DNA of 64,000 bases from Halomonas sp. KG2 (lineage in GTDB: Bacteria; Pseudomonadota; Gammaproteobacteria; Pseudomonadales; Halomonadaceae), in contig CP098528.1 of NCBI GenBank assembly GCA_030440445.1, forward strand, positions 2,046,001-2,110,000. The letters are read 5' to 3'. Each line of letters begins with the position of its first letter. Within the stretch, counting starts at the first letter, position 1. Made by a program: the position numbers and the translations under genes. Of the stretch, positions 54,230-64,000 are shown in pieces. The notes under the pieces are model-generated. The model had not been told where the DNA came from. It saw only the letters and a program-made list of their open reading frames with translations, and did no database searches.

Positions 54230-54731
54230 GCAAGCAACCGATGGGTTGCCTCGCGTTACGGTGTATACCGATGGGGCCTGTCGAGGAAATCCGGGCCCAG
54301 GTGGCTGGGGTGTAGTGCTGTCAAGCGGGCAGCATGAGAAGACGTTAAAAGGCTTCGAAGCAGATACCACTAACAATCGTATGGAATTAATGGCGGCCAT
54401 TATGGCGTTGCGAACGCTAAATAAACCGTGTGAAGTGGCTCTCTGGACCGATTCCCAGTATGTGCGCCAGGGGATTACTCAATGGATTCACAATTGGATT
54501 AAACGAGGCTGGAAGACAGCGGCCAAGCAACCGGTTAAAAACGCTGAGCTTTGGAAGACCCTTCACGAGGAAACACAGCGGCATCGTGTCGAGTGGCACT
54601 GGGTAAAAGGGCATAGCGGGCATCCCGGCAATGAACGCGCCGATGCGTTGGCTAACGAAGCCATTGATGAGCATAACAGGAGAGCAGCATGCGCCAAGTG
54701 CTGTTCTTCTATACACAAGACGTCTTTGTAA
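54222..54731 (+). CDS. rnhA: Ribonuclease HI with an altered C-terminal tail
   Basis: RNase HI cuts the RNA strand of RNA-DNA hybrids. The four catalytic carboxylates are present: Asp17 ([17 protein letters not shown]), Glu55 (NNRMELMAA), Asp77 (LWTDSQYV) and Asp141 ([10 protein letters not shown]), plus the basic handle WIKRGWKTA and HSGHPGN. I chose GTG at 54222, nine bases after AAAGGA; GTG at 54216 is too close. The protein is 169 residues. About the last 13 ([11 protein letters not shown] and neighbours) run across the remnant dnaQ start into foreign sequence and do not look like a family C-terminus, so the tail was probably changed when the island inserted. All catalytic parts are upstream of that point, so it should be active. 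Confidence 0.93.
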
Positions 54732-54748
54732 ACAGTATCCGAGTATAG
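54689..54748 (+). pseudogene. dnaQ: dnaQ 5' remnant at the island junction
   Basis: AGGAG (54678-54682) precedes ATG CGC CAA GTG at 54689, encoding MRQV, which fits the start of the DNA polymerase III epsilon subunit (MRxVVLDTETTG in relatives). The gene order gloB-yafS-rnhA calls for dnaQ here. After the fourth or fifth codon the frame diverges ([15 protein letters not shown], then stop), with none of the exonuclease motif DTETTG. The rest of dnaQ is not found in the window. The identification rests on position and four residues, so it is an inference. Confidence 0.5.
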
Positions 54749-54792
54749 ATAATTCAATGTTTTAATGCGAGATATAGAGTCGGTGTTCCCTT

Positions 54793-54840
54793 AAAATGTA
54801 AACGTTGACCTGTTTTTAGGTTTTCCTGTTTACATTTTTT
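54793..54840. terminator. Nested inverted repeat with T run beyond rnhA
   Basis: AAAATGTAAAC (54793-54803) and GTTTACATTTT (54828-54838) are perfect 11-bp arms, with a smaller ACCT/AGGT hairpin between them (54808-54821), and TTTTTT at the end. It can end rnhA transcription and, on the other strand, the helicase operon. Because it lies just inside the island boundary it could instead be an element end or recombination site. Confidence 0.5.
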
Positions 54841-54918
54841 ATCGCCTCCTCAAAGATTCATTAATCTCGACTGAGTATTCCAGGAACTGTTTAGACCGCT
54901 TAGGGAGAGCCTGTGTAG

Positions 54919-56298
54919 TCATATCAAAGAAAGGAGGTACTGTCGGTAGTATTGAGAAAAGCTTAGTGTCAACAATGTGGAGTCAGTAACTTGCAACTCG
55001 CTCTTACCCTCCTGCTCAATAGGGGGAGGAGGGTGCTCATTATTTCCTGTTTCGCCCACTGTGTTGCCATAGGTATGTCTAGCGTATGATCCGGTACTGC
55101 TCCCATTTACTTTCTTTGACTGCAGCGTTGATTGATCTTCCGGCAGATCATTCGCGATTCTTTGTGAGTACTTGCGCAAAGTAGGCTCAGCGATGACATA
55201 GAGCCACGCCTCTCTGTCTTCAGCACCTATCTTTCTCAAAATTCGGCCAAGCACTTGCCTATAGTGAAGCTCTGTGCGAATGCGACTGAGGTAGCAGCAT
55301 ACTGCAAGTCGCTGTATATCTGTGCCTTCAGAAATCATGCTGACTGCGACAATCCAACAAGTGCTGTCATGTCGAAAGCGGTCAATTAATTGTTGAGCCC
55401 TTGGAGTTTTACTGGTGACTACGACATGACTTTGATGTTTGGCATGCAGTAGCTCCGCTATCTGATGGGCATGTTCAATATCCGTTGCCACAACGAGCCC
55501 ACCAGCTTTTGGGATCGTATTTCTAATTTCAGTCAACTGCTGAATACCAATATCTAGTACGGCATTGAGAATGTCGTCATGGCGCAATAGGTCTTCGTAG
55601 CTAACAGGTGACTCACTGAGCAGTTGAGAGAAGCATGAAAACCCCCGAACGGACTCAGTGTTCTCTTTTTCTTCGACGAGCCTAATTACTGGGTTGTCAA
55701 TTAACGTAATCCTAGGTGCTCTGCAAACGCCATCGTTTACGGCACTTTGAAGGTCATAACGATAGTCACAGATCAACTGCCCCTCTGGATCAGAGTACCT
55801 AGCTAATGCGATAGGCAGGTCATCAGAACGCCAAGGGGTTCCAGATAAGCCGAGAGTATAGGTCGCTTGATCCTGGATATTTCGAATAATCTGCTGTCCC
55901 CACGTGTTACTTAGTAGAGGATCGTGGCCTGCACAGTGATGGATTTCGTCGAAGATAGCTAATATGCGAAATTTTTGAAAAAGGTCCCAAAAATCTTCCG
56001 GTTGATACTCCATTGATTGGTAAGTGTAAGCGGCGCCTGATGATGCAATGACGTTTCCAAAACGCTGGCCTAAGACAGCAGAAAACGTACGCTGCATACC
56101 TGCTACCACTTCACGCGTAGGAGCAAAGCAAATAACGAAGTCGATCAGATGGTCTTCAAGTAACAACTTGGCTAGTTCGGCAGCAAGACGCGTTTTTCCG
56201 CTGCCAGGTGTTGCCTGGACGAAAAAATCACTGTGATTCAAATAGTGTGACTTAGCAAGATCTAAACACTCCGCTTGCCATGCTCGCAGTTCCGTCAT
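54919..56298 (-). CDS. SF2 DEAD/DEAH-family helicase of the accessory module
   Basis: The 459-residue protein has the core superfamily 2 motifs in order: motif I ATPGSGKT (29-36), Ia FAPTREVV, II DEIH (117-120), III SGTPW (152-156), V SEGTDIQRL and VI YRQVLGRILRK (346-356). It resembles the helicase cores of type I and III restriction and related defence enzymes rather than RNA helicases, but has no nuclease or methylase domain. The tail after about residue 390 is low-complexity and polar. Its start overlaps the upstream gene by four bases (ATGA), so the two proteins are translationally coupled and probably act together. Function is unknown. Confidence 0.85.
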   Translation of the reverse strand: MTELRAWQAECLDLAKSHYLNHSDFFVQATPGSGKTRLAAELAKLLLEDHLIDFVICFAPTREVVAGMQRTFSAVLGQRFGNVIASSGAAYTYQSMEYQPEDFWDLFQKFRILAIFDEIHHCAGHDPLLSNTWGQQIIRNIQDQATYTLGLSGTPWRSDDLPIALARYSDPEGQLICDYRYDLQSAVNDGVCRAPRITLIDNPVIRLVEEKENTESVRGFSCFSQLLSESPVSYEDLLRHDDILNAVLDIGIQQLTEIRNTIPKAGGLVVATDIEHAHQIAELLHAKHQSHVVVTSKTPRAQQLIDRFRHDSTCWIVAVSMISEGTDIQRLAVCCYLSRIRTELHYRQVLGRILRKIGAEDREAWLYVIAEPTLRKYSQRIANDLPEDQSTLQSKKVNGSSTGSYARHTYGNTVGETGNNEHPPPPIEQEGKSELQVTDSTLLTLSFSQYYRQYLLSLI

Positions 56299-56918
56299 GA
56301 TGCACTGAGGTGGTCAAGGGCTTTCTCTAGAGCGCTGACACACCCTAACAGTCGTGAGCTACGCTCATGAGCCTTACGGCAATCACACGAAAGGGTATTT
56401 TTAAGCTCTGGATGGTCATGCATAAGCTGCTGAAAGGTCTCTACTTCTCCTAGCGATTCTAAAAATCGGCTTTGTGCCTCATTCAACTTTTTTTCCAAAA
56501 CTGTGTGGCTATCGGAAGCTGCCCTTTTTCCTGATTTGCTTTCTTCGGTTGGTGGCGAGCTTACGTGATTGATAGCTGGCTCATTAAGCATTTGAGGATG
56601 AGTGCGTTGAAGCCACTCGGCAAAGCCATCTTTACCAGTACCTAGATCAGTCTCCATCAGTTCAGTGCTCACGTGATACAGCTGGCCACGCTTGCGTCTC
56701 TCACTATCCTTTTCAATCAAATGAGCCTTAACCAACTTTTTGATTCGCTCATAAATGAAACGTCGCAGCGGCGCTTTATGCGCAGGTTGTATTTCGTACA
56801 GATCCAAATACTGATCCCGAAGGTTTTGAACACAGAATGTTGAGTTTTCTGGCTTCAGTAAGAGCTCAATGATCCGACTATCTATGTTCGGAAGGTGATG
56901 GGGCATGGGTATAGGCAT
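56295..56918 (-). CDS. Winged-helix-like protein of unknown function coupled to the helicase
   Basis: From the ATG at 56918 the protein has 207 residues; a second ATG at 56906 would give 203, and neither has a good ribosome-binding site. Residues 10-90 (NIDSRIIELLLKPENSTFC, RRFIYERIKKLVKAHLIEKD, RGQLYHVS) look like a winged helix with a basic wing. The second half is helical and ends with CDCRKAHERSSRLLGCVSALEKALDHL. A frame extending further upstream would cross the divergent promoter region and is rejected. A -10 in the palindrome at 56935 would give a leader of only about 13 bases, so translation may be nearly leaderless. I do not recognise the family; DNA binding is inferred. Confidence 0.65.
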   Translation of the reverse strand: MPIPMPHHLPNIDSRIIELLLKPENSTFCVQNLRDQYLDLYEIQPAHKAPLRRFIYERIKKLVKAHLIEKDSERRKRGQLYHVSTELMETDLGTGKDGFAEWLQRTHPQMLNEPAINHVSSPPTEESKSGKRAASDSHTVLEKKLNEAQSRFLESLGEVETFQQLMHDHPELKNTLSCDCRKAHERSSRLLGCVSALEKALDHLSAS

Positions 56919-56934
56919 CAAAGGGGAAAAAATG

Positions 56935-56948
56935 CGGATTATAATCCG
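56935..56948. promoter_or_regulatory. Perfect palindrome with -10 hexamers on both strands (candidate Xre operator)
   Basis: CGGATTATAATCCG reads the same on both strands and contains TATAAT in each direction (+ strand 56940-56945). It lies in the 85-base space between the divergent Xre and winged-helix genes. On the minus strand a TTGCGG at 56966-56961 is 17 bases from the -10, a plausible -35; the plus-strand -35 is poor. A bound Xre dimer would cover both -10 elements and could repress both directions, as controller proteins of restriction systems do. This role is inferred. Confidence 0.6.
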
Positions 56949-57003
56949 TGGCTTGATTGGCCGCAACGCCCGATAGTCCAGCCTCATGAACAATGAGGCT
57001 GGT

Positions 57004-57276
57004 ATGGAAGAGCTTGCAGTCGCCATCGGAAAGAGCATTAGAAAAAAGCGTCAAGAAAATGGCTTGTCTCAGGATCGCTTTGCGTTGATAGCAGACATTG
57101 ATCGTAGCTATATGGGCAGGATAGAGCGTGGAGAGGTGAACCTCACCATTGAGAAGCTGTATAGAATCGCAGCGATATTACAGTGCGAGCCGATAATCTT
57201 GCTCCCCAGGATGTCTTCCATCAGCTTACCGGCCCCTCGTAAGTCAAATAAAAGCGGAGGTAGCGAGGGGAGATAG
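57004..57276 (+). CDS. Xre-family transcriptional regulator (controller-like)
   Basis: The 90-residue protein contains an HTH_3 domain: IGKSIRKKRQENGLSQDRFAL, IADIDRSYMGRIERGEVNL, TIEKLYRIAAILQCEP. It closely resembles short controller (C) proteins of restriction-modification systems. ATG at 57004 has GAGG five bases upstream; an in-frame ATG at 56986 would add six residues. The basic, polar tail (RKSNKSGGSEGR) is probably disordered. It is divergent from the winged-helix/helicase pair and likely regulates both through the palindrome at 56935. Confidence 0.85.
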   Translation: MEELAVAIGKSIRKKRQENGLSQDRFALIADIDRSYMGRIERGEVNLTIEKLYRIAAILQCEPIILLPRMSSISLPAPRKSNKSGGSEGR

Positions 57277-57284
57277 CTTTTTTT
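57233..57284 (+). terminator. Possible terminator overlapping the Xre 3' end
   Basis: CCCCTCG (57233-57239) pairs with CGAGGGG (57264-57270) across a 24-base loop, and a run of seven T residues begins eight bases later. The long loop makes it uncertain. The region from 57285 to 57459 is A+T-rich with no recognisable feature. Confidence 0.4.
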
Positions 57285-57459
57285 GCGCTTACAATTGATT
57301 TGCTTGTAACTTAATAAGGCATAGCTACACAGGTCATGTATAACCGTAGCCAAGCGCATGTGAAAACTAGCGGGTACGGCCCACAAACTTTTAATTTATT
57401 AATTACAGCTAATTATCACCATTCCAAGCTACTTCCAAAAAACGCTACTTTGCTAATAC

Positions 57460-57687
57460 TTAGAACTCATCTTCATTAATTAGGTGAAATACCATTCGCT
57501 TTGCATGAGTTAGGTTACTTTTAGCCAGGACGTGCCAGTCGTATGCTTCGCTTCCCGGTATCATTTCCTGCCCCACTGCACAACGGTCTCGCTCATAGCG
57601 AAATCTTGTTCCAGCAGGTGATTGCCACTCGACAACATTGTCACCGCTAAACACCGGCTTCAAATCACTTATTTTTCGTATGCTCAT
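57460..57687 (-). CDS. Small hypothetical protein of the accessory region
   Basis: A 75-residue frame starting MSIRKISDLKPVF, with an acidic C-terminus (LINEDEF). Composition is protein-like, with segments such as VVEWQSPAGTRFRYERDRC, but I do not recognise a family and the ribosome-binding site before 57687 is weak. It may be a genuine small gene or a remnant, since its neighbours are partly decayed. Confidence 0.4.
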   Translation of the reverse strand: MSIRKISDLKPVFSGDNVVEWQSPAGTRFRYERDRCAVGQEMIPGSEAYDWHVLAKSNLTHAKRMVFHLINEDEF

Positions 57688-57745
57688 CACATCAAGCTAC
57701 CTGAAAATTAACAGAGACCTTGATAACCTATTTTCTTGGGTAACG

Positions 57746-57961
57746 CTAATACCATTCATATATGGGTAGCAAAGTGCAGCTTCCCTGGTAAAACATACCT
57801 TTGGCTTGAGCAAGCTTTTGGGCTTGGGAGGACACATCGTAATACCTTATGACACACAAGAATTTTCTACCCTGCAAAGTAGACACGATCAGCCATGACG
57901 TGAAAACATCGACACCGCCAGCATCGAGTGCTTGCTTGGCATCCTGAAAAGCTGACGCCAA
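57746..57961 (-). pseudogene. Possible frameshifted remnant downstream of the large STAND gene
   Basis: The frame (residues such as QDAKQALDAGGVDVFTSWLIV and KGMFYQGSCTLLPIYEWY) looks protein-like but is closed upstream by a stop immediately before a TTG at 57961, with no start codon or ribosome-binding site. Just upstream, a different frame reads HHLIIAHVSTSANSDWRQ and then ends. Joining the two across a frameshift near 57955 would give one continuous small protein. This suggests a broken gene; apart from this the stretch 57691-58009 holds nothing I recognise. Confidence 0.35.
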
Positions 57962-58009
57962 TCACTATTCGCACTGGTGGACACATGGGCGATGATTAAG
58001 TGATGCCGA

Positions 58010-61000
58010 CTATCGATCGGTTGAGTGGATGAAAATAGCTGACGGAGCGTCCTGCCCAAAAAGTCGTTTCTGGCGCTCCTTTGCAAGCTTTCCATAGCGT
58101 CTATTCAGTGGGTTTTTTAGGCTCGTACCAAAGGCTACAATCGGTCCGCCATCTTGAGTAAAGCTATCTCTCCAGATATCAAACCGGCCATCAACACATT
58201 GTGTGAAAAGAACCCCAGCCTGCCAAAACGTGACAGGATTATTGGTTTCGCACATGATCTTGAACCAGTGTCGAGCCCAGCTATTATACCGATAGGCAGT
58301 GATCGCCGCCGCGTATGCTTTGCCGGGAAGGCCCTCGGTATCTTTGAATTCCGCTAATATCCTTTCACTGTGTGGGCTTTTATCGCAAAAGCCGGCAACC
58401 ATAAGCCCGCGAGCAATTTGGGCTGGTTCGAGCTGCGCAATCTTTTCATCGATATAGGTATCAAGAAAAGCCCCTTGATTGCATTGCAATGCGGATAATA
58501 CTTCGATTGCAATCGCTTGGTCAGTTGCCGCGCTGTCCAATCGCTTTCTACGCAACGCATCAAATGATGAAGATTTGCCTCCCTTCCATACGCTAATTGA
58601 TCCAAGATCAACGCCGCTCTTACCGAATGTAAACCTTACCAACGGGCGGCTATGTGCCGTTCGCTCAAATAGCAGCACACTCTTCTCAGGATTGGTGTCT
58701 GCAATCGCACTAGCCACCAGCAGAATGAGATTGTGGACGACTGGGAGCCTAGTGTCGTTGATCTCCATGAAGTGGTCACCCCACTTATTTATAATTTCGG
58801 GATCGATAACTGCCAACGCCGCAAAATCCTCATGCGTAAGGTGATCAAGAATGATATGCGCTTTTGCTGCTGTCAGCTCTTCCCTGAAAGCAACGAACGA
58901 GTCTTTATTATGTTTTTGCCTATCACGGAATTCATTATCGCTCTCGGATAAACGTCTGAAAAAATCTTCTATATTCTCTGAGGGCGTCTCTCGCTCTGAA
59001 ACAGAGAAAAGTATTGGATTCTCGGAAAAAATATACTCTGCCTCCAACTCAATTTCAGGAGTAACCAGTTCAATCGGTAGGCCGACTGCACAGTGAATAG
59101 AGGCATCAATGCGTTGAGCTATTTGTTGAACCGCTGTTCTTTTGAGCACCGTTGCTGCTCGCCCATAGAGTGATGATGAAATCCGGTCTATAACCATACT
59201 CTGATCGGTGAGTCCGGCTTCTGCAGCCTTTAGCAATGCAAGAGAGCCATACCAGTTCTCAAAATTATCTTTGCCCTCGGACAGAACATATTTCCAGTCA
59301 CTCTCCGCTACCGCCCTTATTAGGTCGGGATGCCCCGAGTGGGCTGCCAGACCGAGTGCGCTGCGGCGAAGCCGTCCCTCTTTCGAAGTAATGGAAGACC
59401 GGGTGAAATCGCATATCTCGGTTGAGAGTTCTGCGCCCGTCGCAGCCGCTATCTCAAGAAGTAGGTGCTGCCTATAACATTCCGTACCCTCGGCCAGGGT
59501 TTCTTTTAAGAAACGGTCAAGGATCTGTGGATCAGGAGTTTTGGTTTCATCTATGAGTTCCAGCAGGAGTGGCTGATCCTTGGTCGTTGCCAGCAGAATT
59601 TCAATCTGCTCGGAGCAATCAAGGAATGGAAAAGCGATGAGCAATTCATACTGCAGCAAGATGCTCTCACTTTTTGGCAGTCCTTGATTATCGCCTGCTC
59701 CTTGTGCATTTTTCCATTTTTCGACCAGCGCCCGTGCCTGATTCGCCGTGACGAGCGCGCCATGTTCGCGCAGCTCCAATAACCCTTGTCGAAGCGATAT
59801 GTCGGTGCGTTTTACAACGTTCTCTGCAAACTCGCGAAGCTTAGCTGCGGCGGCTTTCAGTCCAAAACGAGCAACGACAGGCAGGGAATCAACAAAAACG
59901 TGATCCTGAGACGATTGCCCTCTGCCCTGTCGGAGTGCGGTGAAATCAAGGCTCTGGTAACGCTGGACAGTTTGATCCATGTTAGCAGGTACCGGTGCTG
60001 ACGGATCACAGGGCTCTATTTTTTCCTTTGCAGGGAATAGGCCAAGTGGCATCTGACGATCTTGGGTTAGTTCCTCATAAAGGATGCTAGCTTCCCGATC
60101 GTCACCTGAATCGCCCGTTGCTCGCAAGATTCTAAGCAGAGCCCACTTGCCTGTTTTTGAGATGGTATCAGAGTTGAGGTCCTTACAACTTTGCAACAGT
60201 GAACTTCGCGTCTCTGACCAATCACGAAGGTTCAGGCTAATGAGGGCAAGGAAACTCTTGCTTGGCACCTGATAGGAGCCGTTAAGCGCGTTGGCAAAAC
60301 TCCAGTCAGTAAGCTCGTTTGCAAACGGTGCGAGTCTCTTGCCAGCCAGCAAAGTCAAAGCAAGCCCTGATAGTGCATCCAGATTACCCTCCATTTCTAT
60401 TAGACGTCTCTGACGAGTCTTTTCGGCGGGTGAGAGGGCAGCAAGCTTGTCATCCATTTCCGCTCGCAGCTTTTCACGCTCCTGCTTAACTTTGTCCTGG
60501 GGATCACGACGGACATGACAATGCATACGGCGCTCCACCGCCAGAGAGTATGCGCGTAGCCAATCCCGAACTTCCTGTGCTACCGAGTCCCAGACGGCAC
60601 TTGATTTTGCAGCTTGAACAAGCGCCGCTTGTATCCAGTCGAAGTTTGGCTGGTGACTAGAATGCAAACAGAGATTCCGAGCCGCCTTTGCGATATCCAG
60701 CGGTCTTTCCCTTGCTAAACTGACCAAGGCGTCAAGCGAATCTGGCGGTGGGTTCTGAAGCTCGGCGAATCCCTTAATAAGTGCCTGGGCAATCTCAGGT
60801 GAATGCTCATCCTCGTCAGCTGCGCATACTGTAATTGCCGCTTTCACTGCCTCAGCCGTTTTATCCAGCGCTTCGATCGGCTCAAGAACCTCCTTGAGAG
60901 CATCATCAAGACTACGGTTGTTGCGCTTGGCTTTGCGCAGATTTTCGATAATGGAGAACCCAAGGGCCAATGTTAGCCCCTCATCCCTGAGTTCGTATTT

Positions 61001-62584
61001 TTGCGGCTCCCCGGGGACGGAGGAATAGAAGCGGCCTTCGGCAACCGCTGGAACTTCGTTGTCAAAGATGCGCAGATCGTCCTTTACTTGGCTCGTAGCG
61101 CGTATTAGTAGTTCCTGCGCTTGCCCGCGTAGATGTGCTACGAATTCGATAGGATCATCGCCAAAGTCTTCCTTGATTCCTGCCATGATATGCTCGAACA
61201 ACAGGCGTTCGATGCTAAGTTCCTCAAATATTGCAACGTCATCGCCGAAAACCTCAAGTGCAATCGACAGAATGCGAGGATTCCTTAGGAACTCTGCAAC
61301 AAATGGATTGAGCTTGTTAAGGGGAACTAGGTGCCTCCTTAGAATGCTGTCACGTTCGTCAGCATTCCATTTGGGAATTACTACTTCTTTAAAGGGGTAT
61401 TGCAGCGCCTTCTTAACTCGCGTGTTGAAGTAGTGTGTGCGTACCGTGAGTACGATGCGACCGCCACGCTGGTTAACATAGGTAGCGACATTATCGACGA
61501 TCTTTCCCCATTTTCGGTCGGGGCGCTGATTGATCCCGTCGAAAACGAAAACAAAGCGCGGACGTGCCGGTTTGTCATCAGCTTTCCATGCCTTCAGTCG
61601 TCGCCGCCAGCGTATTATGCTCTTATCGCTTTTTTCATCGTTGGTTTGCGCAATGAGTTTTGCGATCAGAAGTGTCTCTATGTCGTCCTGTGTAGAGACC
61701 TCTGAAAAATCATCAGGCGTTAAAAACACCAGAAGAGGCTTGTCAGGTGGTGCAAGCCATGACTGCAACACAATCCATGACTTGCCGCAGCCTTCTTCAC
61801 CATGGACGCAGACAATATTGTCCTCACCCATATTCGATAAATAGGGTTCCAGTTTATTGACCAAGCCTTTGCGGGGTAAAACGGTGACAGTTTTATCTCT
61901 GGGTGCGAGGGGTTGACTGAGATTGCTGCGTGCAATGGCCTTTTCAGATACAGTATCTTCAAACCACTCTGCGTTGGCCTTTTCTGCCATCGCTGTGGCC
62001 ATTCCCGGAGCGTCAAGACGTTTGCGAATTAATTTCTCACTATCCTGAAACCGAGCATCTGAACGAATAGCATCCAGTGCATCAAGCACATCACTCAAAG
62101 CAATCTGATTGTTGAGATTGGCTTTCAGAAAGGCCTCGGTCTTCAGACCAGCTATTACGAGTGCTACGGCTAGACGTGGAAAGTCGAAAGGAGTCCAATC
62201 GAGGATTAGAACGCTGATACCTTGCTGTGCGCCATCGGTACGCAAGTCATCCGCTAGCTGGCTAGGTACTTCGCAGGTTGCCCCTAGCACCCAAACGAAG
62301 TCTGCGTGATCGTTGTGGCGAACAAAATCAGGTATCTTTGAGATCACTTCTGAACGTCCTAGAGTGCCATTGTAGCGCTTTGCCTCGAAGGCAACTTTAC
62401 CTTCAAAAGATGCCTTGCCGTCTACTCCACGCTGGTAGCCACTGCTCGCAAGCCGAAAGGGGATGCCAGTTATTCCGTCAAGCGCTTCGCCAATAAGCCC
62501 TTCAAAGCCATCTTCTCCCGTTGGCTTCAGACTCAGTAGAGCTTTCCTCAGGTTTTCGATATGGGTTATCAATGGTTCGGTCAT
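58010..62584 (-). CDS. Large PD-(D/E)XK nuclease-STAND NTPase (Avs-like candidate antiphage defence protein)
   Basis: The 1,524-residue protein has three parts. Residues 1-140 resemble an Mrr-like PD-(D/E)XK nuclease: an early helix with GFEGLIGEAL (Glu28), GVD (Asp55) and FEAK (Glu67, Lys69), then FVWVLGAT. Residues about 235-540 form a P-loop NTPase: Walker A GEEGCGKS (262-269), hydrophobic Walker B FVFVFDG (Asp349), VLTVRTHYF with an arginine (382), and a later RNPRIL segment, the STAND arrangement. The remaining roughly 950 residues are helical and repeat-like, with no recognised enzyme motif, as expected for a target-sensing domain. In Avs proteins such a C-terminus recognises conserved phage proteins, and the N-terminus then cuts DNA. 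Assignment to that class rests on architecture; the actual target and activity are unknown. It is a single long intact frame with no partner gene downstream. Confidence 0.8.
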   Translation of the reverse strand: MTEPLITHIENLRKALLSLKPTGEDGFEGLIGEALDGITGIPFRLASSGYQRGVDGKASFEGKVAFEAKRYNGTLGRSEVISKIPDFVRHNDHADFVWVLGATCEVPSQLADDLRTDGAQQGISVLILDWTPFDFPRLAVALVIAGLKTEAFLKANLNNQIALSDVLDALDAIRSDARFQDSEKLIRKRLDAPGMATAMAEKANAEWFEDTVSEKAIARSNLSQPLAPRDKTVTVLPRKGLVNKLEPYLSNMGEDNIVCVHGEEGCGKSWIVLQSWLAPPDKPLLVFLTPDDFSEVSTQDDIETLLIAKLIAQTNDEKSDKSIIRWRRRLKAWKADDKPARPRFVFVFDGINQRPDRKWGKIVDNVATYVNQRGGRIVLTVRTHYFNTRVKKALQYPFKEVVIPKWNADERDSILRRHLVPLNKLNPFVAEFLRNPRILSIALEVFGDDVAIFEELSIERLLFEHIMAGIKEDFGDDPIEFVAHLRGQAQELLIRATSQVKDDLRIFDNEVPAVAEGRFYSSVPGEPQKYELRDEGLTLALGFSIIENLRKAKRNNRSLDDALKEVLEPIEALDKTAEAVKAAITVCAADEDEHSPEIAQALIKGFAELQNPPPDSLDALVSLARERPLDIAKAARNLCLHSSHQPNFDWIQAALVQAAKSSAVWDSVAQEVRDWLRAYSLAVERRMHCHVRRDPQDKVKQEREKLRAEMDDKLAALSPAEKTRQRRLIEMEGNLDALSGLALTLLAGKRLAPFANELTDWSFANALNGSYQVPSKSFLALISLNLRDWSETRSSLLQSCKDLNSDTISKTGKWALLRILRATGDSGDDREASILYEELTQDRQMPLGLFPAKEKIEPCDPSAPVPANMDQTVQRYQSLDFTALRQGRGQSSQDHVFVDSLPVVARFGLKAAAAKLREFAENVVKRTDISLRQGLLELREHGALVTANQARALVEKWKNAQGAGDNQGLPKSESILLQYELLIAFPFLDCSEQIEILLATTKDQPLLLELIDETKTPDPQILDRFLKETLAEGTECYRQHLLLEIAAATGAELSTEICDFTRSSITSKEGRLRRSALGLAAHSGHPDLIRAVAESDWKYVLSEGKDNFENWYGSLALLKAAEAGLTDQSMVIDRISSSLYGRAATVLKRTAVQQIAQRIDASIHCAVGLPIELVTPEIELEAEYIFSENPILFSVSERETPSENIEDFFRRLSESDNEFRDRQKHNKDSFVAFREELTAAKAHIILDHLTHEDFAALAVIDPEIINKWGDHFMEINDTRLPVVHNLILLVASAIADTNPEKSVLLFERTAHSRPLVRFTFGKSGVDLGSISVWKGGKSSSFDALRRKRLDSAATDQAIAIEVLSALQCNQGAFLDTYIDEKIAQLEPAQIARGLMVAGFCDKSPHSERILAEFKDTEGLPGKAYAAAITAYRYNSWARHWFKIMCETNNPVTFWQAGVLFTQCVDGRFDIWRDSFTQDGGPIVAFGTSLKNPLNRRYGKLAKERQKRLFGQDAPSAIFIHSTDR

Positions 62585-62755
62585 TCAGGGTCTCATATCT
62601 ACCTGTTCAAAATCGATGAAAGCACATGCTGCTTTTTCTTGCATGGCCGCTTTTGGGTCGTCAGCTGTCATGGATCGCACGTTAAATGGCTTCCTTTGGC
62701 TGCACTCCACGGAAACAAAACGGGTTTTCTAGCCCCCGTCGGGGTCGGATTCGGG

Positions 62756-63040
62756 TCAGGTGTAAACCCCATGCTCTATCCTGGCTATCAGGTCTAGCAC
62801 CTGCTGAGGGTTTTCTTGCATGACATCGGCGGGGCGCTTCCACCCAAGCCCTATAGCCTCATGATGTAACCAGCGGTCTGCCTCTGTTCGATCACCCTCA
62901 AACAGCTTGATTGCCATACGCCAGACTTCGATTGCGATTTGTTCTTCCGTTTCATCAGTGCCGAGCATAGACCAACCCTCTTTTTCTGCAGCTGGCTCCA
63001 GCGTGGTTTTGCTTGAGGATGCTTCCCCGTAGCCGATCAT
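62756..63040 (-). CDS. Orphan DUF2384 (MbcA/ParS/Xre-type) antitoxin-like protein
   Basis: The last 45 residues (ADRWLHHEAIGLGWKRPADV and QQVLDLIARIEHGVYT) match the toxin-binding domain of RES-Xre/MbcA-type antitoxins. The expected N-terminal helix-turn-helix is not visible. A RES-type toxin gene, normally adjacent, is absent: downstream lies the large STAND gene, upstream a umuC remnant. No ribosome-binding site precedes the ATG at 63040. GGAGG with an ATG at 63065 lies just upstream in a different frame, so the gene may have lost its true 5' end by a frameshift. Confidence 0.65.
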   Translation of the reverse strand: MIGYGEASSSKTTLEPAAEKEGWSMLGTDETEEQIAIEVWRMAIKLFEGDRTEADRWLHHEAIGLGWKRPADVMQENPQQVLDLIARIEHGVYT

Positions 63041-63064
63041 GCGGCTTATAGCGTCGATTGGTCA

Positions 63065-63110
63065 TCGCAGCCTCCATCAGGTAACCGAAAACGGACTTCT
63101 TCCTATATAT
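63065..63110 (-). promoter_or_regulatory. Possible promoter and ribosome-binding site upstream of the antitoxin frame
   Basis: On the minus strand, TATATA (63110-63105 region) could serve as a -10, and GGAGG lies seven bases before an ATG at 63065. That ATG opens a frame (MTNRRYKPHDRLRG, about 36 codons) that is +1 relative to the DUF2384 frame. No convincing -35 was found. Confidence 0.3.
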
Positions 63111-63179
63111 AGTAAGGTTTACGCGCTTTCTTTGCCTAAAACCAGCCTCGCAGATCGTCCCAGCGGTCTAGTCACTTGA

Positions 63180-63706
63180 TGTACAGTGATGGTTTCTCGC
63201 TCGTTTGGTCGGCTTACTAACAACCCGCATGACCACCGCGAGGCACTTCGCCAGCATGCTGCCAGAGCGGGTGAAAAATTACGTAAACAGGGAAGTGTCT
63301 CCAGTGCGGTGATGGTATTCGTGCGCACCAATTCGTTTCGACAAGATTTGCCGCAGTACAGTAATCGGGTGGTAGTGACATTAGATCCACCGACGGATGA
63401 TAGCCGCGAGTCGATTCACGCAGTCATTCAAGGGCTACGACAGCTATGGCGTAAGGGGTTCGCTGTGATGCCGCTCGACCTTTCTCCCAAAGCCAACTGA
63501 CACTAATGAAAACACCGAAAACTACAGCCGTAGCTAAACGCAGCGAGTGGCTAATGGCCACTGTAGATCAACTCAATCGCGAATTAGGCAGAGGGACGAT
63601 ACAGCTCGGATTACCCCCTGCAGGTAACGCCTGGGCATTACGCGTTAAACATCGCACCCCACGGTACACCACGCGTTGGGATGAGTCGGTGAACGTTAAG
63701 CTTTAA
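63180..63706 (+). pseudogene. umuC: Decayed 3' fragment of umuC (DNA polymerase V catalytic subunit)
   Basis: Two adjacent plus-strand frames encode the UmuC C-terminus. The first (to 63500) has VSRSFGRLT, REALRQHAARAGEKLRKQGS, VFVRTNSF and VTLDPPTDDSRE of the little-finger domain, then RKGFAVMPLDLSP, where relatives carry several more residues. The second frame (63506-63706) has LMATVDQLNRELGRGTIQLG and SPRYTTRWDE-like TPRYTTRWDE, the DUF4113 tail. A stop at 63177 closes the frame upstream, and the polymerase active-site half and umuD are missing. It is therefore a truncated, frameshifted relic. Confidence 0.8.
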
Positions 63707-63817
63707 TTTAAGCGACAAGGCTTCTAATGAAAAAAGCTCAGAATAATAAGCATATCTAATAATCTGGTGCTAAGGTGGTTTAGAAAATAGCCGTGCGTAA
63801 TCTATATGGAGAGCAGG

Positions 63818-64000
63818 ATGCCATCAGCCCAGCCATTGAACGAGGAGCTTTTAGAACGCATATTTGCATACCGTGCGTTTGATCTGCGTGATCACTTCCC
63901 ACAACCGTTGGAAACGTTTCGGCAGGCACTTGAGTGCTTACAAAGCGATGAATCTTACTTGCCGGACATGAGCGGTGAGATTGTGGCTTATCTTCGGGAT
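63818..64000 (+). CDS. Unidentified protein, 3'-truncated by the window end
   Basis: The frame starts at ATG 63818, six bases after GGAG, and stays open to the window end (61 codons): MPSAQPLNEELLERIFAYRA, then FDLRDHFPQPLETFRQALEC and so on. An in-frame ATG at 63806 overlaps the ribosome-binding site. The composition is protein-like and amphipathic, but I do not recognise the family. It is not dnaQ. Whether it is the first core gene past the island or another island gene cannot be told. Confidence 0.55.
   Translation, partial: MPSAQPLNEELLERIFAYRAFDLRDHFPQPLETFRQALECLQSDESYLPDMSGEIVAYLRD

Follow-up and report, generated by a model that had tools for sequence, protein, structure and literature searches.

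A gene on the (-) strand of the Halomonas sp. KG2 genome, at positions 58010..62584 of the 64,000-nucleotide stretch analysed here (contig CP098528.1, positions 2,046,001 to 2,110,000; the window), probably encodes an antiviral STAND sensor-nuclease that works as a one-gene system, has an Avs/NLR-like build, belongs to an uncharacterised family and acts by the mechanism proposed below. An initial annotation, made from the sequence alone, had read the product as an Avs-type or new antiphage sensor-nuclease, and the architecture, conserved residues, NLR-like fold and island location supported the protein as a candidate for that role. The single frame described earlier was intact, with an ATG start, 1,524 codons and no internal stop; the assembly check placed the stop-free gene at G000:C1:2104013-2108584, and relatives kept it as a unit. 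All parts of the gene located below lie on the same strand.

Domain architecture and conservation

A database search in which 8,000 candidates were scored returned 797 relatives at E up to 0.001, and 118 of the 120 listed had at least 1,480 residues; a second search, with a distant Methylobacterium member as the query, returned 48 proteins. Conservation was counted over the non-gap rows of the 167 proteins listed by both searches, the exceptions being P0035 (1,155 residues), in which the nuclease and Walker A residues fall in gaps, and P0167, where position 67 is Q. The motif residues named in the initial annotation (D55, E67-x-K69, Walker A G262-S269, D349 and R382) were numbered correctly, and because they were near-invariant over the 167 listed homologues, they were not chance occurrences.

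Residues 1-160 (62105..62584) were assigned to a Mrr-like PD-(D/E)XK effector domain from conservation, modelled secondary structure and weak profile matches. Its key residues were E28 (163/163), D55 (62420-62422; 166/166), E67 (62384-62386; 165/166) and K69 (62378-62380; 166/166), accompanied by Q51 (165/166) and G53 (166/166), and the model contained strands at 43-45, 64-71, 96-102 and 124-128 and helices at 27-39 and 108-121. The catalytic D...E-x-K was carried on this conserved core, as in PD-(D/E)XK nucleases. The nuclease-like N-terminus proposed at the outset held for motif residues and core topology, whereas matches to profiles of known nucleases were weak and below cut-off. Pfam Mrr_cat matched 7 of 14 members weakly (best E 0.01; window protein E 0.078, 13.5 bits against a cut-off of 21), and weak PADLOC matches to short-Argonaute-associated restriction endonucleases occurred in up to 3 of the 14, the window protein not among them. 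A modelled helical linker (residues 161-235; 61880..62104) followed, lying inside the segment of lowest identity, 151-235.

Residues 236-545 (60950..61879) comprised a STAND NTPase and winged-helix part, as indicated by fold matches, conservation and an Avs2 profile match. The P-loop NTPase with Walker A, Asp349 and Arg382 noted earlier was conserved: G265, G267 and K268 of Walker A (262-269; 61778-61801) and the following W270 were each found in 166/166, D349 of Walker B (61538-61540) and G350 in 166/166, N352 in 163/166, the sensor Arg382 (61439-61441) in 166/167, and P436 and R437 in 167/167. The model of residues 1-640 matched NLRC4, NLRP3, CED-4 and Avs4 in fold (Foldseek, VIA-align) and, like NLR/Apaf proteins, has a P-loop NTPase carrying both Walker motifs, after which come helical and winged-helix parts. 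No STAND-type Pfam family exceeded its cut-off on the window protein (AAA_16 20.8/32.6 bits, nSTAND3 19.6/27.2, NB-ARC 18.9/23.5, NACHT 13.8/26.7); these matches nevertheless marked the centre of the protein as STAND-like, and one relative (L008) did exceed the NACHT cut-off (28.4/26.7 bits). Membership in the STAND superfamily is accordingly claimed on the modelled fold. The NCBIfam scan of the window protein gave chance-level rows alone.

The remaining residues, 546-1524 (58013..60949), were modelled by AlphaFold2 as a nearly all-helical solenoid with HEAT/ARM-like matches (mean predicted local distance difference test score 90, predicted template modelling score 0.89), which we propose as the sensor. 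About 980 residues follow the NTPase, in agreement with the helical C-terminus of about 950 residues first described. A hypervariable sensor was rejected, as residues 546-1420 had the highest identity of the protein (91-98%) between the window copy and two other Halomonas copies, those of Halomonas sp. SpR1 (L002) and Vreelandella titanicae (L003). Identity over the last 100 or so residues was 82-83% in both pairs involving L003. Since synonymous divergence (dS) was also raised there (0.27 and 0.39), the end of the protein appears mosaic rather than clearly under diversifying selection.

Separate profiles of the nuclease, STAND and C-terminal parts were compared with ten proteins, with reversed sequences as the control. 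Four distant family members matched all three (probability 99.1-100), which indicated that the parts stay combined in these distant members and that the link to Avs2 concerns the STAND part only. Low scorers against the STAND profile were Avs3 (1.6), an nSTAND3 protein beside the L004 relative (19.5), the restriction protein of the window genome's island (0.2) and GajA (3.9). An exchange of the C-terminus for an unrelated one in distant members was rejected, as the C-terminal profile matched the four at 99.9-100; ten reversed sequences scored 0.1-0.5 against it, and the Avs2 pair, Avs3 and three further proteins 0.1-0.3.

A single-gene module in a defence island

Among the three copies, nucleotide similarity of the window gene (93.5% to L002, 91.9% to L003) spanned only window positions 58016 to 62658 or 62659, so that the common segment consisted of the gene and about 75 bp upstream. 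Comparison over the whole island gave the same limits, except for a 107-bp, 79% match to L002 elsewhere; L002 and L003 had in common the gene with flanks of about 120 bp on the near side and 140 bp behind it, plus a 69-bp match apart from these. These limits confirmed the view that the gene stands alone, and a partner gene was rejected, no flanking gene being common to the three copies. The shared upstream stretch (62585..62659) is the presumed promoter region; a scan for sigma-70 patterns, promoters and terminators found nine promoter-like sites, none of them inside it.

The ratio of nonsynonymous to synonymous divergence (dN/dS) for the three copy pairs was 0.304, 0.302 and 0.231, which indicated purifying selection on the frame and led us to reject a decayed gene. 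Identity of the window copy to the two others was lowest, 72%, at residues 151-235. From about residue 51 to 250, the window DNA was 73-86% identical to L002 and L003, which were 95-97% identical to each other there; the rest of the gene was 90-100% identical to L002 and 80-99% to L003, with lower-identity stretches in L003 at about residues 301-400 and 1401-1524. This mosaic pattern of sequence identity suggests recombination within the gene.

The accessory region recognised initially was confirmed and more sharply delimited by two empty sites: in the relatives G152 and G594, window position 54699 joins 85598 directly. The island therefore covers 30.9 kb, from 54700 to the extended coordinate 85597, with 54700..64000 in the window and 21.6 kb beyond it. 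It was inserted within the first codons of dnaQ; the resident dnaQ frame now begins with different residues. Its G+C content was 47.8%, compared with 49.8% for the gene and 51-53% for the surroundings. The cargo included Gabija (GajA, 1,029 bits; GajB, 834 bits), a Septu-like pair (PtuB-like, 95 bits; PtuA-like, 146 bits) and a 1,662-residue type ISP/IIG restriction-modification fusion (2,273 bits over 1,646 residues scanned), together with a gene read by eye as a resolvase; of the three genes at the dnaQ end, two have phage-integrase domains. Gabija, Septu and restriction-modification are mainly anti-phage or anti-foreign-DNA systems, and the gene lies among such known defence systems on mobile DNA.

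The restriction-modification fusion carries Mrr_cat_2, and the N-terminus of the window protein has a weak likeness to Mrr-type restriction domains; both would suit a STAND-type protein whose Mrr-like domain is a sequence- or modification-dependent restriction enzyme and which hydrolyses ATP for DNA scanning instead of signal-dependent oligomerisation. We consider this very unlikely, as the NTPase fold is NLR/STAND-like, the solenoid is conserved together with the NTPase in the four distant members, and no separate DNA-recognition domain was recognised in the window protein. The family profile gave no match to the fusion.

Apart from the window, the survey of neighbours of relatives took in 12 independent loci (L002, L003 with L060, L004, L006, L007, L008, L009, L010, L011 counted as one with L019 and L020, L017, L022 and L023); left out were L018, which is a fragment of the C-terminus, L005, which has no flanking sequence, and L012-L016, which are short and in part duplicates. 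Ten neighbour open reading frames were scanned with PADLOC, and the others were judged by eye or from the annotation of the records. At 5 of the 12 loci, genes of defence type or of a CRISPR-transposon could be recognised: AriAB (508 bits) at L006; by annotation, HamA at L008, RloB with an AAA ATPase at L007, and a SAVED protein with a helicase and XamI restriction-modification in the L011 group; and the transposon at L003. L023 had a weak neighbour, an SMC-like ATPase (mad3 model, 54 bits), and a protein adjoining the L004 gene had an nSTAND3 match just under the cut-off. As the loci were read without a random-locus control, the survey is supportive and not a test of enrichment.

At L003/L060 (G198:C2, about 238.5-276.6 kb), the V. 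titanicae homologue lay between a TnsA match, with the next two frames read by eye as TnsB and TnsC, and TniQ, Cas8/5f, Cas7f, Cas6f and a repeat array, and is cargo of a type I-F CRISPR-associated transposon. Such Cas genes act in transposition and not in immunity; four further cargo genes look to us like a QatABCD set. In two distant relatives, a VapC-type gene stood directly upstream of the STAND gene (L007, 7559-7948, annotated; L022, 17553-17954, by eye).

The family is widespread, unnamed and overlooked by PADLOC 2023. Listed members came from Pseudomonadota, Nitrospirota plasmids, and Bacteroidales and Thermoleophilia metagenome-assembled genomes, under source names, where given, of "hypothetical protein", "NACHT domain-containing protein" or "restriction endonuclease". 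A literature search did not turn up the family; papers were not searched by sequence, and absence from print is not claimed. Distribution of the gene is patchy: it was found in 4 of 201 genomes of the family-level sample, its own included and one match at 31% identity, and in 2 of 398 of the phylum sample, its own included, the other at 25% identity over residues 22-631. Among 72,556 plasmid records, 13 held a relative, and coverage reached at least 80% in 6 of these. A tblastn search of phage records found no match, and in viral contigs none of the six close patterns used for the search was matched, which gave no sign of phage carriage in those collections.

According to a 2020 eLife paper (PMC7159879), bacterial STAND proteins have mainly been studied as transcription regulators, and a non-defence protein of cell-state or transcription signalling, for instance, with a catalytically dead nuclease fold, would fit that record. 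Such a role is hardly credible here, given the conservation of E28, D55, E67 and K69 (99-100% of non-gap rows) and given that the gene is patchily distributed, sits in a mobile defence island and has no fixed partner.

Other genes were noted in the window genome. Window positions 54919-57276 hold a RadD-like/ResIII helicase (459 residues), a 247-residue protein with no family match and a divergent helix-turn-helix controller-like gene, a cassette that may be another defence system. A 94-residue gene at 62756-63040 encodes an MbcA/ParS antitoxin C-terminal domain, with no adjoining toxin partner seen by eye. An IMS_C fragment at 63186-63500 and a short umuC-like frame (by eye) on to about 63700 are the remains of one mutagenesis gene inside the island. 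Elsewhere in the genome, at G000:C1:2982279-2986202, PADLOC Drt1a (PDLC02171) matched a 1,318-residue open frame in two pieces (261 and 280 bits).

Proposed mechanism and the nature of the trigger

While the cell is at rest, the C-terminal HEAT-like solenoid (roughly residues 546-1524) would keep the protein inactive. During infection, a foreign structure, most simply a conserved phage protein, would bind the solenoid, upon which the STAND module (236-545) would take ATP and the molecules would oligomerise. The N-terminal Mrr-like PD-(D/E)XK domains (1-160) would thereby be brought together to cut DNA, which would stop phage replication and probably kill the cell or arrest it, as in abortive infection. 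According to a paper on AVAST type 5 (PMC12931631), STAND sensors share the effector-NTPase-sensor order, and the nuclease effectors of Avs1-4 cut phage and host genomes upon recognising terminase, portal or Ksap1. By analogy, our solenoid should bind a ligand, and binding should drive ATP-dependent assembly and DNA cleavage.

The same build and mechanism could answer to a trigger other than a phage structural protein, such as proteins of plasmids or of conjugation, nucleic acid of foreign origin or, in a guard model, a damaged host process. Relatives on the 13 plasmid records would suit this, as would the variety of ligands bound by same-build STAND sensors, which in PMC12931631 and PMC12724215 include JADA, an early phage protein, besides terminase, portal and Ksap1. 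We regard it as unlikely, however, since the island partners are Gabija, Septu and restriction-modification, and since the Avs nucleases described there bind phage proteins (PMC12931631, PMC12724215). A phage-protein trigger is our preferred reading. Somewhat short of even odds, we would go further: next to Avs1-5, the family may stand as an antiviral STAND nuclease type in its own right, with a HEAT-like solenoid for a component of phages (or plasmids) to which none of the known Avs proteins responds. Its genes would then be recombination mosaics, with the effector-linker segment of the window copy (about 51-250) exchanged and most of the solenoid nearly fixed.

Several observations weigh against the antiviral sensor-nuclease reading. 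Assignment of the nuclease rests on motif, topology and sub-cut-off profile matches; model confidence was low in the catalytic loop, and when PDB sequences were searched with a profile of 14 N-termini, no nuclease of solved structure scored below E 0.9, the 12 rows up to E 5 being chance-level with AspBHI (E 0.93) as the sole restriction nuclease. AAA+ proteins, ORC and FtsH among them, also appeared in the Foldseek rows for residues 1-640 (E about 1e-5), Avs4 was not among the 50 VIA-align entries shown for that model, and the likeness of the solenoid in structure searches was limited to generic HEAT/ARM proteins. PADLOC models had no match to the window protein at E up to 1 or 10, the filters of the latter scan removing most matches above about 0.1. 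At 6 of the 12 other loci (L002, L004, L009, L010, L017 and L022), no known defence gene was recognised nearby.

Conserved phage proteins are the infection cue for bacterial NLR-like sensors, and each further sensor family can bring another recognised pattern to light. The interest of this family lies in its size, spread, one-gene portability and trigger. Because unrelated islands share one gene and very little flank, single-gene transfer and a phage-protein screen could test its function directly.

Comparison with known antiviral STAND systems

Avs4 (AVAST type 4), whose domain order is nuclease-STAND-sensor, was the top Foldseek match of residues 1-640 (8DGF, E 7e-9, 644 alignment columns), and the 8DGF protein, at 1,541 residues, is likewise one large chain. 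The rows shown by VIA or Foldseek for the C-terminal model did not include Avs4; absence from the shown rows does not imply a different fold, and similarity remains compatible with them. The PADLOC Avs4 model (PDLC02169, 1,570 positions; PDLC02168 is Avs3b) had no match in the window genome, and full-length Avs4 was found in none of the 274 genomes searched, of which 11 matched at no more than 22 bits.

Two Avs2 (AVAST type 2) proteins matched the STAND profile (probability 83.9 and 86.7, E 7.8e-6 and 4.4e-6) and have the Walker B block D-x-x-N-E/Q in common with the window family, but they showed no similarity to its nuclease and C-terminal profiles (probability 0.1-1.6). Two Avs2-like genes (L033 and L039, G644:C100) lay about 9 kb apart in one gammaproteobacterial genome. 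Avs3 (AVAST type 3) is also a large single protein, with its P-loop weakly aligned to the STAND part of the family; it differed in its STAND profile probability of 1.6 and in length (2,112 residues in the frame compared, versus 1,524). From bNACHT proteins and animal NLRs, the window protein is set apart by a NACHT score under the cut-off (13.8 versus 26.7 bits) and its family by W270, a Trp that follows Walker A (166/166), and by a Walker B of the form D-G-x-N-Q/E. As no PADLOC Avs model matched, we file the protein under an uncharacterised family of antiviral STAND nucleases, one with Avs-type architecture: an N-terminal effector, a central STAND module and a long C-terminal helical part in a single protein.
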